In this document: positions 18,731 to 22,254 of the stretch, piece after piece
Numbering within the stretch: position 1 is the first letter of the stretch
How the letters are laid out: each line of letters opens with the position of its first letter
Origin: Mesoaciditoga sp.
GTDB taxonomy: Bacteria > Thermotogota > Thermotogae > Mesoaciditogales > Mesoaciditogaceae
NCBI GenBank assembly: GCA_002878315.1
Contig: PNIW01000008.1
Span: 1-47,603, forward strand
Direction of reading: 5' to 3'
DNA length: 47,603 nucleotides
The notes under the pieces: model-generated
The model's input: only the letters and a program-made list of their open reading frames with translations
Database searches by the model: none
What the model was told of the DNA's origin: nothing
Program-made: the position numbers and the translations under genes

Positions 18731-20053
18731 TCAAATTTTGTATCTTCTTCTGCCAGAAAAGACGAGTTCTATTCCGTTTTCTTCGAGTTTTTTCCTTATG
18801 TTTTTGTCCTCTTTGACTCCGCCGGGCTCTATGACGGTCTTTATTCCGCTTCCTATTATAAGATCTGGAATTTTTAAATCTCTTATCGGGCCGTCAAAGG
18901 CACAGATCGCGCCATCTAAACTTGAAGGATATTTTTTGGCCTTCATCAGTGCAACTTCTAAAGCCTCTATCTGTTCGGCCTGGCCGGATCCTAAAGAGAT
19001 CATTTCGTAATCCTTGAATATGCAGCATGCCATGCTTTTGGAAAGGGCAACTATGAGGTTGACGAATTTGTACTGTACGTCAAATTCATCAGATAAAAAT
19101 CTCATATTCAAAAGATCATCTGGCGTCTGAACGAGAAAATTTCCTTCGAGAAACCTGTATTCTTTTTCTATTTCTAAATTCGGTATCTCTTTTATCTTTA
19201 TGAATTTCTTTATTTTAAGGTCAGGGTAATCGGGAAAATCGGGCAGGATGACTATATCAAGATCATTTCCATCAAGCCCTTTTAAGAGTTCCTTGCTTAA
19301 GAAATTGGCGGCAAGGACTCCTCTTGAATCTTTGAAATTGAAATTGCTTCTTTTTACCTCAGCGATCACGCCGTGATGAACCCTTACGGCGAATCTGTAA
19401 TCTAAGTATCTCAGAAGCGAAAGGGCCGTGTAGATGTCTATTATGTTGTTGTAACTGAGAGTAAAGAGAGTATCCTCATCGAGAATGTCAAAAAAAGCCT
19501 TTGTTTTTGCTATTTTTGAAAGGTAGGCGAGTTGCTGCGGATTTTCTCCGTATCTTAAGGGTGTCTTTTCTTCCAAAATAAGGGTTTCAAATTTTTCGGA
19601 GGCAAAGAGTTCGCTCATTTCTTTGTGGATCAAAGACGTGTATCTTAAGACCCTGTAGAGCGCTTTGAGAGAAAGCATCCTTCTGTCCTGAAGTGTTATG
19701 TCTCCGCATTCTTCGAGTGATTCTATTATTTTATCGAAATCATCGGGATCGAGCACTATCACTGAATTTCTGTAATTTTTTACGCATGAATAGATCGCGG
19801 AAATCTTCCACTCCTCTATCGAATTGAGAATGTAATTCTCTTCCAGTCTTTGATTTGCAGTGTTAAGTTCAAGCACAACGAGATCTATACCCTGAAAATC
19901 CGAACCCCCGGATTTTTTGATCTCGATGTTAAGATCGAATATGTTTTTGAAATCGTCGATTGTATAGATCTTTACTCCAAACTGAATCAGTTTGTCCTTA
20001 AAAGCGCTGTAGGGGCCGTCGATCCTTTCGAAAAAAGCGTAATTTACGTTCAA
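18731..20053 (-). CDS. Divergent PurH-like protein, probably not an active AICAR transformylase
   Basis: The 440-residue length matches the short Thermotoga-type PurH. Family landmarks in order are LRYGENPQQ (166-174), LSYNNI (199-204), a GSGQ segment and IEPGG near the C-terminus, so the AICAR formyltransferase fold is present. Catalytic motifs are degraded: KHxNPCG reads HHGVIAE (about 226-232), SNA after the conserved Lys reads SMA, GQMSRVDS reads GQAEQIEA, FFPF reads DGPI, and the terminal RHFRH reads RRRYKI. The N-terminal half shows neither the IMP cyclohydrolase SSGT nor the KTLHP motif. It starts at TTG 20053, four bases after the cheW stop, inside a signalling operon rather than a purine operon. 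I infer a repurposed ligand-binding paralogue. Confidence 0.72.
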   Translation of the reverse strand: MNVNYAFFERIDGPYSAFKDKLIQFGVKIYTIDDFKNIFDLNIEIKKSGGSDFQGIDLVVLELNTANQRLEENYILNSIEEWKISAIYSCVKNYRNSVIVLDPDDFDKIIESLEECGDITLQDRRMLSLKALYRVLRYTSLIHKEMSELFASEKFETLILEEKTPLRYGENPQQLAYLSKIAKTKAFFDILDEDTLFTLSYNNIIDIYTALSLLRYLDYRFAVRVHHGVIAEVKRSNFNFKDSRGVLAANFLSKELLKGLDGNDLDIVILPDFPDYPDLKIKKFIKIKEIPNLEIEKEYRFLEGNFLVQTPDDLLNMRFLSDEFDVQYKFVNLIVALSKSMACCIFKDYEMISLGSGQAEQIEALEVALMKAKKYPSSLDGAICAFDGPIRDLKIPDLIIGSGIKTVIEPGGVKEDKNIRKKLEENGIELVFSGRRRYKI

Positions 20054-20057
20054 TCCA

Positions 20058-20513
20058 TCACCTCATTGCATTTGCAAGTTGAACTGACTCTTTGTCCGTT
20101 AAAATTTTGTCTATATCTAATATGATTATCATTCTACCATTCATATTCGAGATGGCGCCTATGTATTTGTTAGAATTATTCGATATCTCCTCTGGAGGTT
20201 CTTCGAGTTGATTTTGGGAGAGAGTTATGACCTCTTTGACCTCGTCTACTATTATCGCGACTTTTTTGTTTCCGACGTTGACAACAATCGCCTTTTGGTT
20301 CTCCTTTTTTGATTCATCGCTGACTAAAAATTTCTTCCTTCCATTTATTACCGGAATCGCTAATCCCCTGAAATCCATAAGTCCTTCTACAAAATTGGGA
20401 GCATTCGGGATCCTGACGATCTTCCCGACGGGCACTATGCTGTCTATCTTCATAATGTCTATCGCGTATTCTTCTTCTCCTATCATGAAATTAACTACCT
20501 TCATCTCGCTCAT
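20058..20513 (-). CDS. cheW: CheW-like scaffold protein
   Basis: The 151-residue single-domain protein has the two-lobed beta-barrel CheW pattern: VVNFMIGEEEYAIDIMKIDSIV, then IVRIPNAPNFVEGLMDFRGLAIPVINGRK, and a C-terminal strand IIILDIDKIL. CheW couples chemoreceptors to the kinase CheA. No CheA or receptor gene is present here, so it may serve chemotaxis genes elsewhere or a different complex. Its ATG lies 23 bases inside the lexA-like gene, preceded by AGGAGGG, and its TGA is followed almost at once by the purH-like gene, so all three are translationally coupled. Confidence 0.9.
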   Translation of the reverse strand: MSEMKVVNFMIGEEEYAIDIMKIDSIVPVGKIVRIPNAPNFVEGLMDFRGLAIPVINGRKKFLVSDESKKENQKAIVVNVGNKKVAIIVDEVKEVITLSQNQLEEPPEEISNNSNKYIGAISNMNGRMIIILDIDKILTDKESVQLANAMR

Positions 20514-21069
20514 TGAAATCCCTCCTTTCCGGAATTCTTAATATACCGTAGAAACTTCCCTTTATTTCTCCATCGATTTTGTTCCCATTCAGATCTTTTA
20601 ACTCACCGGAATTGTAAATGCCAATGAAGTAATCATCGCCTTTTTTTAAAAGCACAAGTCCATCCTGAATTTCGTCGTTAAAAATTATGTAATCGCCACT
20701 TATAACTTTATATTGAACAATCTCTATCGCTGATTTAACCGCGATAAGAGATTTTTCATTTGACGGGATTGGCAGGTGAACTTTTTTGTTGCTTTTAATG
20801 ATTTTACCACTTTTTCCGGCCCATCCTATTAATTCGGCGAAGGTAATGTCAAAAGGGCTTTGAGAAAGTACCTTTATTCCGCGCGATGCTTTATCTCTTT
20901 TTATGTATCCCTTTTTTTCTATCGCTTCAACATGAGCGAGCGCCCCGCTCGGGGAAGAAAATCCAAAATGATCAGATATCTCCCTTATAGTTGGGGGATA
21001 ACCATTTCTGTTCAAAAATTCTTTTATAAAGTCGTAAATTTCGCGTTGCCGCTGTGTTAATTCTTTTAT
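20491..21069 (-). CDS. LexA-like repressor with degenerate peptidase domain and non-standard start
   Basis: The N-terminal winged helix-turn-helix is clearly LexA: KELTQRQREIYDFI, NGYPPTIREIS and GYIKRDKASRGI (residues 2-68). The C-terminal domain keeps the LexA layout, including a possible AG cleavage pair (84-85) and GDYIIF (125-130). However, the catalytic Ser of the GxSM motif reads as KSAI (112-115), and the Lys-containing TLKK strand reads YFIGIY, so self-cleavage should be impossible. The full domain is open only back to ATA at 21069, preceded by a stop and by AAGGGGTG at six bases. A GTG at 21073 is out of frame by one base in an A4 run. TTG at 21015 would delete the first helix. Confidence 0.75.
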   Translation of the reverse strand: MKELTQRQREIYDFIKEFLNRNGYPPTIREISDHFGFSSPSGALAHVEAIEKKGYIKRDKASRGIKVLSQSPFDITFAELIGWAGKSGKIIKSNKKVHLPIPSNEKSLIAVKSAIEIVQYKVISGDYIIFNDEIQDGLVLLKKGDDYFIGIYNSGELKDLNGNKIDGEIKGSFYGILRIPERRDFNERDEGS

Positions 21070-21075
21070 TCACAA

Positions 21076-21083
21076 CACCCCTT
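21076..21083 (-). promoter_or_regulatory. Ribosome binding site that points to the lexA-like ATA start
   Basis: AAGGGGTG overlaps the DUF1015 stop codon and lies six bases before ATA (21069-21067) and about four before the out-of-frame GTG (21073-21071). No comparable site precedes the in-frame TTG at 21015. It therefore supports initiation at the family-typical N-terminus. Confidence 0.6.
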
Positions 21084-22254
21084 AGAATGTGTGAACGACA
21101 AGGCCACTTCTTAATTTTGGCTCAAACCATGTCGATTTCGGAGGCATTATCATGCCGCTGTCCGCAACGTTAATGACGCTTTCAACGCTTGTCGGGTACA
21201 TGTAAAAGGCTATTTTACCCCTTTCATCGTCGACGATCTTTTGAAGTTCTTTCGGTCCCGCCATTCCTACGAACTCTATGTCAGGATCTGTTCTTGGGTC
21301 TTTTATCCCGAACAATGGATCGAGCACCCTTTCCTGAAGAATAGAAACATCAAGGGATCTGACTGGATCCTCATCAACCACTTTTGCTTTTAACTCGTAC
21401 CATTCTCCGTTGTACATGCCTATAACGTGCGGGGCGACAGACGGAATTGTGCTTCTTTTTGTTACTTCAAAATTTGCTTCCTTTAAGGACTTTATTAATT
21501 TTGAAGTGTCAATGCTTTTTTTTATTATTCTGTGGTATCCGAGTATTTCGAGTTCGTCGTGCGGAAAGATCGTAGCCATGAAATAATTCCATTCCCCAGA
21601 TCCGCCTATTTCAGATGCCGCTCTAACGGAGGCCGCGGCTCTGTGATGACCGTCCGCTATGTAAAAGGCCTCGACGGATTTGAACGCTTCGATTATGTCG
21701 TCGACAAGAACGCTATCCTCTATCCTGTAAAGATCGTGAATGGTTGCGGGATTTTCCGTCGTGAATTTGTAAAGATGGGTGGCGAGATCTGATCTCATCA
21801 ATTTTTTTATCTCTTTTTTCGATCTGTACATCAAAAAGACCTGTTCTGTGTGCGCACGGGTTGTGAGGATGTGTTTCATTCTCTCCTCTTCTTTTTCTTT
21901 TCTCGTAAGTTCATGCCTTTTTATCTTTTCGGGATAGTCAGATGCTTGAACGCACGCCATAACGCCAGTCTGGGTATGCGAGGCCGTTTTTTGAACGTAA
22001 ATGTAGAGTGAAGGCCTTTCATTTCTTATAAGAAGCCCTTCATCTACGAATCTTTTCAATTCTTTTGCGGCGAGATCGTAGATATTCTCTCCCTCTTTGG
22101 CGATCGCGTCAGGTCTTACGATGCGCATGAAGGAGTGCGGATCCTTTGCGAAATCTTTTGCCTCTTTAAAATCCACAACATCGTACGGAGGACAGTTTAT
22201 TCTATTTATCTCGGTACTTTTTGCTTCCAGCCCACCAAAAGGTCTTACGATCAT
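21082..22254 (-). CDS. DUF1015 family protein
   Basis: This 390-residue protein matches DUF1015. It begins IVRPFGGLEA, contains the early NCPPYDVV segment, a long middle with EQVFLMY, and the family hallmark ADGHHRAAAS (about 201-210), then a C-terminal part with VGMAGP. The family's biochemical role is not settled to my knowledge; members in Thermotoga lie near serine biosynthesis genes, but no such genes occur here. The ADGHHR box resembles a nucleotide- or phosphate-handling site. It lies between mrp (15-base gap) and the lexA-like gene (12 bases to its ATA). Confidence 0.85.
   Translation of the reverse strand: MIVRPFGGLEAKSTEINRINCPPYDVVDFKEAKDFAKDPHSFMRIVRPDAIAKEGENIYDLAAKELKRFVDEGLLIRNERPSLYIYVQKTASHTQTGVMACVQASDYPEKIKRHELTRKEKEEERMKHILTTRAHTEQVFLMYRSKKEIKKLMRSDLATHLYKFTTENPATIHDLYRIEDSVLVDDIIEAFKSVEAFYIADGHHRAAASVRAASEIGGSGEWNYFMATIFPHDELEILGYHRIIKKSIDTSKLIKSLKEANFEVTKRSTIPSVAPHVIGMYNGEWYELKAKVVDEDPVRSLDVSILQERVLDPLFGIKDPRTDPDIEFVGMAGPKELQKIVDDERGKIAFYMYPTSVESVINVADSGMIMPPKSTWFEPKLRSGLVVHTF

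Follow-up and report, generated by a model that had tools for sequence, protein, structure and literature searches.

The LexA-like protein encoded in the analyzed window has lost the self-cleavage site, the catalytic serine and the catalytic lysine of LexA, and we consider it likely that this true LexA descendant now acts as a constitutive repressor, binding DNA as a dimer that is not cleaved. The window is the whole 47,603-nucleotide contig (G000:C92) of a draft genome from a family of Thermotogota (Mesoaciditogales). Among its named relatives, Athalassotoga saccharophila NAS-01 stands closest, and its LexA ortholog shares 91% identity with the window LexA; A. saccharophila is thermoacidophilic and among the deepest branching Thermotogae (PMC7163026). 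We propose that the winged-helix domain would still bind a conserved operator, as its extreme conservation suggests, and that the C-terminal domain, predicted to keep a LexA/CI-like fold, would dimerize. With an acidic residue at the nucleophile position, Gly for the general base and Lys-Ser for the scissile Ala-Gly, the self-cleavage chemistry would be gone, and DNA damage would therefore not remove the repressor through RecA. Its activity would probably be set by the amount made, kept low by an AUA start within a housekeeping operon, possibly with further control by proteolysis, a ligand or modification.

The initial annotation had recognized a gene at positions 20491-21069. The gene is real, but it lies on the minus strand and its coding part is confined to 21069..20494, followed by the stop codon at 20493..20491 in our reading of the window (Table 1). 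The 192-amino-acid product matches LexA_DNA_bind in Pfam (PF01726, E=5.8e-23, above the cut-off), the LexA of Thermotoga maritima (3K2Z) is its top PDB sequence match (E=3e-15), and the DNA-binding domain of its structural model superposes on 1LEA (Z 13.0, rmsd 1.2 over 71 residues), which together bear out the LexA identity first assigned to this domain. The window LexA does not match Peptidase_S24 in Pfam, and its score against the NCBIfam lexA equivalog TIGR00498 (77.6 bits) falls below the cut-off of 110.95.

Table 1. Features of the lexA locus in the window (positions in the window; all on the minus strand).
Feature	Position	Strand	Basis
Dyad-less LexA, 192 aa, residue 1 at 21069	20494..21069	-	Pfam, NCBIfam, alignment
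Winged helix-turn-helix DNA-binding domain, residues 2-70	20860..21066	-	PF01726, 1LEA structural match, dN/dS 0.008
Degenerate S24/LexA C-terminal domain, residues 77-180	20530..20841	-	AF2 model, structure and profile comparison
C-terminal dimer strand region, residues 163-180	20530..20583	-	No amino-acid change between two species
Former cleavage site, Lys86-Ser87 for Ala84-Gly85	20809..20814	-	Alignment
Ser113, aligned with E. coli Ser116	20731..20733	-	Sole serine invariant in the family's C-terminal domain
Catalytic Ser119 position, Glu116; Glu/Asp in 9/9 orthologs	20722..20724	-	Alignment, profile comparison
Catalytic Lys156 position, Gly150; Gly 8/9, Thr 1/9	20620..20622	-	Alignment
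AUA initiation codon at LexA Met1 position; TGA stop directly before	21067..21069	-	Sequence, orthologs
Shine-Dalgarno-like AAGGGGTG	21076..21083	-	Sequence
DUF1015 gene, directly upstream of lexA, one transcription unit	21082..22254	-	Pfam, neighborhood comparison
cheW, overlaps lexA end	20058..20513	-	Pfam, neighborhood comparison
Divergent PurH-like gene, after lexA-cheW in all family genomes seen	18731..20053	-	Pfam, neighborhood comparison

In an alignment of the window LexA with Escherichia coli LexA and about 80 others, whose result was stable in four MAFFT modes, Glu116 occupies the position of E. coli Ser119 and Gly150 that of Lys156. The loss of both catalytic residues, claimed in the initial annotation, is thus confirmed, and both are missing from all nine family orthologs. 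To this the alignment adds a change that had gone unremarked, the replacement of the Ala84-Gly85 cleavage site by Lys86-Ser87, which is neither Ala-Gly nor the Cys-Gly that can also serve as the scissile bond. The motifs by which the loss had been recognized fared differently: YFIGIY is indeed the strand that has Gly at the lysine position, but the serine of KSAI, Ser113, corresponds to E. coli Ser116 and does not mark the nucleophile site. Cryptic self-cleavage, in which the family-invariant Ser113 would act as a relocated nucleophile together with another base, is highly improbable, given that Ser113 does not align with Ser119, that the C-terminal domain has no invariant Lys and that the Ala-Gly bond is gone.

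The losses extend across the family. Nine of its 10 genomes carry lexA, and all nine genes lack the cleavage site, the Ser and the Lys. In the alignment of these orthologs, position 119 (E. coli numbering) is Glu or Asp in every case, position 156 is Gly in eight and Thr in one, and position 84 is Lys in eight and Glu in one. Because A. saccharophila NAS-01 is an isolate and its ortholog shows the triple loss, the loss cannot stem from an error in sequencing or binning; the nine open frames and the dN/dS values also speak against sequencing error and rule out a pseudogene.

LexA matches number one per genome. A search for LexA/S24 proteins in the complete A. saccharophila genome and in that of the window found no cleavable LexA, and neither holds the second, intact lexA for which the initial annotation had proposed to search; the other S24 matches in the two genomes are a signal peptidase and an HTH-S24 protein with Tyr in place of the Lys. 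RecA is encoded in 10 of 10 family genomes. The loss of the cleavage site, the family-wide loss of the dyad and the lack of a cleavable LexA both here and in the complete relative support the earlier expectation that this regulator should not undergo RecA-stimulated self-cleavage in the known way. The Mesoaciditogales family (Athalassotoga and its kin) probably lacks the SOS switch in its classic form.

Some other family members have phage-type HTH-S24 repressors with intact dyads (for example, L078 and L079). Separately, an HTH-S24 regulator conserved in the family (L031, L083, L084, L089, L090 and L082) has also lost its catalytic Lys, which is replaced by Tyr, Phe or Arg, and a conserved palindrome, TTATTGTAGAATAA, lies at about -28 of this paralog's own gene. 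SOS regulation in the family could have passed to this paralog (L031/L084), which is located near recA in Athalassotoga; its conservation and its palindrome would fit such a takeover, and phage-type substitutes for LexA are used by Bacteroidetes (PMC8565304). However, because its catalytic Lys is lost, the paralog should not self-cleave, and we regard the takeover as unlikely.

An AlphaFold (AF2) model of the window LexA, built from a 21-row alignment, has a pLDDT of 88.7. At whole length, it matches the LexA structures 3JSP and 3K2Z with Z of about 14 and a large rmsd, which is presumably due to domain hinging. Its C-terminal domain matches those of LexA and lambda CI with Z of about 10 (rmsd 2.6-2.9 over 103-106 residues), and the matches across LexA, lambda CI and 186 CI range from Z 9 to 10.7. 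This good-confidence model had intact LexAs in its alignment; because a model from four family members alone left the C-terminal domain below useful confidence, the predicted retention of an S24/LexA-type C-terminal fold depends in part on those intact sequences. A profile-profile comparison of the family's C-terminal domains with those of intact LexAs is collinear (P=9e-4) and supports homology. The match to phage 186 CI (2FJR, 2FKD; Z about 9) is to a protein whose LexA/CI-type C-terminal domain serves oligomerization and is not known to self-cleave. Unlike the window LexA, 186 CI is a phage protein with a different DNA-binding domain, and it is inactivated by an antirepressor.

Purifying selection on lexA is strong, and the two domains are under unequal constraint. 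In two species pairs, dN/dS is 0.008 and 0.025 in the DNA-binding domain and 0.15 and 0.13 in the C-terminal domain, with an overall value of 0.08 for lexA. The highest values, from small counts, are found in the regions of the lost Ser and Lys (0.25 and 0.40), and the last strand (residues 163-180) has zero nonsynonymous changes between two species. This is how selection looks on a protein that still works as a DNA-binding dimer while its protease site has gone out of use. A decaying relic, which would do little and be heading for loss, might be suspected from the score under the NCBIfam lexA cut-off, the weak start codon and the clean deletion of lexA from its conserved operon in the sister genus (G005). 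Yet the frame is intact in nine genomes of three genera, and the low dN/dS, overall and above all in the DNA-binding domain, argues against decay, making this reading improbable. That the sister genus lives without lexA also counts against a constitutive repressor, the reading that we prefer.

The first codon of the window lexA, at the position of LexA Met1, is ATA with TGA directly before it, and its frame holds no ATG, GTG or TTG before residue 19. The residue at this position is Ile in all nine orthologs (the window and L002-L009), encoded by ATA in six, ATC in two and ATT in one; the corresponding codon in other Thermotogota LexAs is mostly ATG or TTG. Four of the nine family genomes have no in-frame NTG upstream of lexA, in two more (G001 and G002) the sole upstream GTG sits inside the ribosome-binding site, and in the remaining three a GTG or CTG that could serve as the start lies one to three codons before the Ile codon. 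These rare AUA, AUC and AUU starts suggest deliberately weak lexA expression. Other regulatory genes with a non-canonical start are infC (ATT) and that of Streptomyces SigR (GTC). The SigR start was uncovered by the same logic and is repressed by IF3; as in G001 and G002, its ribosome-binding site contains an apparent GTG (PMC5472188). SigR and infC are different proteins, and IF3 control is demonstrated for them (PMC5472188) but conjectured for the family lexA. With the SigR precedent, low, IF3-sensitive LexA synthesis is a reasonable inference for the family. Automatic annotation probably truncates or misses such genes; for the window lexA, the truncation would be to the TTG at 21015.

On the minus strand, the gene order around lexA is tsaB, a HEAT-repeat protein, an Mrp-type ATPase, DUF1015, lexA, cheW, a purH-like gene, an MFS transporter, secG and tyrS, the last three named by eye from their translations. 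Those that precede lexA (tsaB, Mrp, DUF1015) are housekeeping genes of an ordinary kind. DUF1015 adjoins lexA in nine of nine lexA-bearing family genomes, at a distance of about 0.75 kb in G004. The composition of the operon varies: cheW is missing from the operon in the congeners G001 and G002, which keep lexA, and in G005 DUF1015 is followed by a short gap and then by cheW and the purH-like gene, lexA having been cleanly deleted (L138:2640-2760). In Athalassotoga, PF01808 matches no gene but the purH-like one, whereas G004 and G006 have a normal PurH and carry the purH-like gene as a second, divergent copy. In three other genera (L093, L095, L096 and L138), two further genes stand ahead of DUF1015-lexA in the operon, one for an oxidoreductase and the other for a DNA repair methyltransferase of the MGMT/Ogt type with the motif PCHR.

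Since cheW and lexA do not always occur together, the coupling to CheW and the PurH-like protein by which the initial annotation had envisaged a possible rewiring is not supported. A new signal as such may exist, and none is evident; constitutive repression, governed by how much LexA is present, fits the data equally well. More generally, the former protease domain might bind a ligand or a partner, or be modified, and so answer another stress (e.g., acid, redox or purine status). This sensor role, which we regard as doubtful though the most credible of the alternatives, would account for new conserved chemistry that does not look like random decay: the acidic position 119 in all nine orthologs, the Lys at the former P1 position in eight of nine and the invariant Ser113. 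In Synechocystis, moreover, phosphorylation is a possible means of LexA control (PMC7567884). On the other hand, the operon partners are inconstant, and the relaxed constraint around the old active site is unlike a precise ligand pocket. Still more tentatively, we conjecture that the family rebuilt LexA into a non-proteolytic regulator, with an acidic nucleophile position and a Lys at the scissile Ala, a new signal acting through the domain and a level gated by IF3 via the AUA, AUC or AUU start; the acidic residue 119 and that Lys would possibly form a salt bridge and so hold the old cleavage loop in place.

The LexAs of T. maritima (3K2Z) and other Thermotogota share an orthologous DNA-binding domain and an equal overall fold with the Mesoaciditogales LexA, but they have the Ala-Gly site, the Ser and the Lys, whereas the latter has none of the three. 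The other Thermotogota LexAs that we examined are mostly intact, the exceptions being L023 and those of genus g10. In L023 (G060), the Ser is kept and Arg stands at the Lys156 position. A search with the window LexA gave no LexA match in some deep families; genomes of family f3 (L118-L120; G011, G023 and G017), likewise without a match to the query, have a UmuD-like S24 protein with an intact dyad. Genus g10, which belongs to another family and is presumably Marinitoga, also has a LexA DNA-binding domain in a protein without the dyad (L098-L103). Its LexA differs in being shortened to about 154 residues, with a C-terminal domain of about 80 residues that has no detectable S24 relation in profile comparison, and in having a normal ATG start. 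The g10 genomes also carry other S24 repressors with intact dyads. In a full-length tree, the Mesoaciditogales and g10 LexAs, both on long branches, group together (99/99), and a tree of the DNA-binding domain does not decide between origins of the dyad loss in the family and in g10 (AU p 0.43 and 0.66). While the trees do not settle the matter, the species placement favors independent losses.

A known counterpart is the LexA of Synechocystis sp. PCC 6803, which has no Ala-Gly and has Asp for Ser119, and which is a repressor outside the SOS response with no reported cleavage (PMC3091678, PMC4759255, PMC7567884). The window LexA shares the winged-helix domain, the absence of the Ala-Gly site and an acidic residue, here Glu, for Ser119. 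With a LexA DNA-binding domain, a lost site and Ser, and a conserved gene, the Mesoaciditogales LexA belongs with that of Synechocystis; it carries additional changes, comes from a distant phylum and is fixed throughout a family. Unlike the cyanobacterial protein, it has also lost Lys156, has a shorter C-terminal domain, shows these losses as a family-wide trait and starts with AUA, AUC or AUU. We found no report of a dyad-less LexA outside cyanobacteria in the literature searched. In this deep-branching family of Thermotogota the trait is fixed, a complete isolate genome has no cleavable LexA, and one genus has deleted lexA entirely. The culturable A. saccharophila offers a system for studying DNA damage responses with an uncleavable LexA, and for asking what selects for a LexA repressor kept without its switch.

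Nine known LexA boxes were not enriched upstream of genes in 0.8 Mb of the A. saccharophila genome, and 106 promoter pairs compared with the congener G002 held no recurrent conserved palindrome, only scattered single ones (at an antitoxin gene, mnmA and the HTH-S24 paralog). No promoter or operator that would point to autoregulation is visible at lexA, which lies mid-operon; recA is also inside an operon. Because these operator and regulon searches found none, repression by the family LexA is itself an inference. Palindrome counts in the same 0.8 Mb brought out only AATT repeats with a 7-bp period. These intergenic (AATTNNN)n repeats occur at A. saccharophila positions 695407-695452 and 1000694-1000767, among others, and the 0.8 Mb contains 49 intergenic AATTNNNAATT sites.
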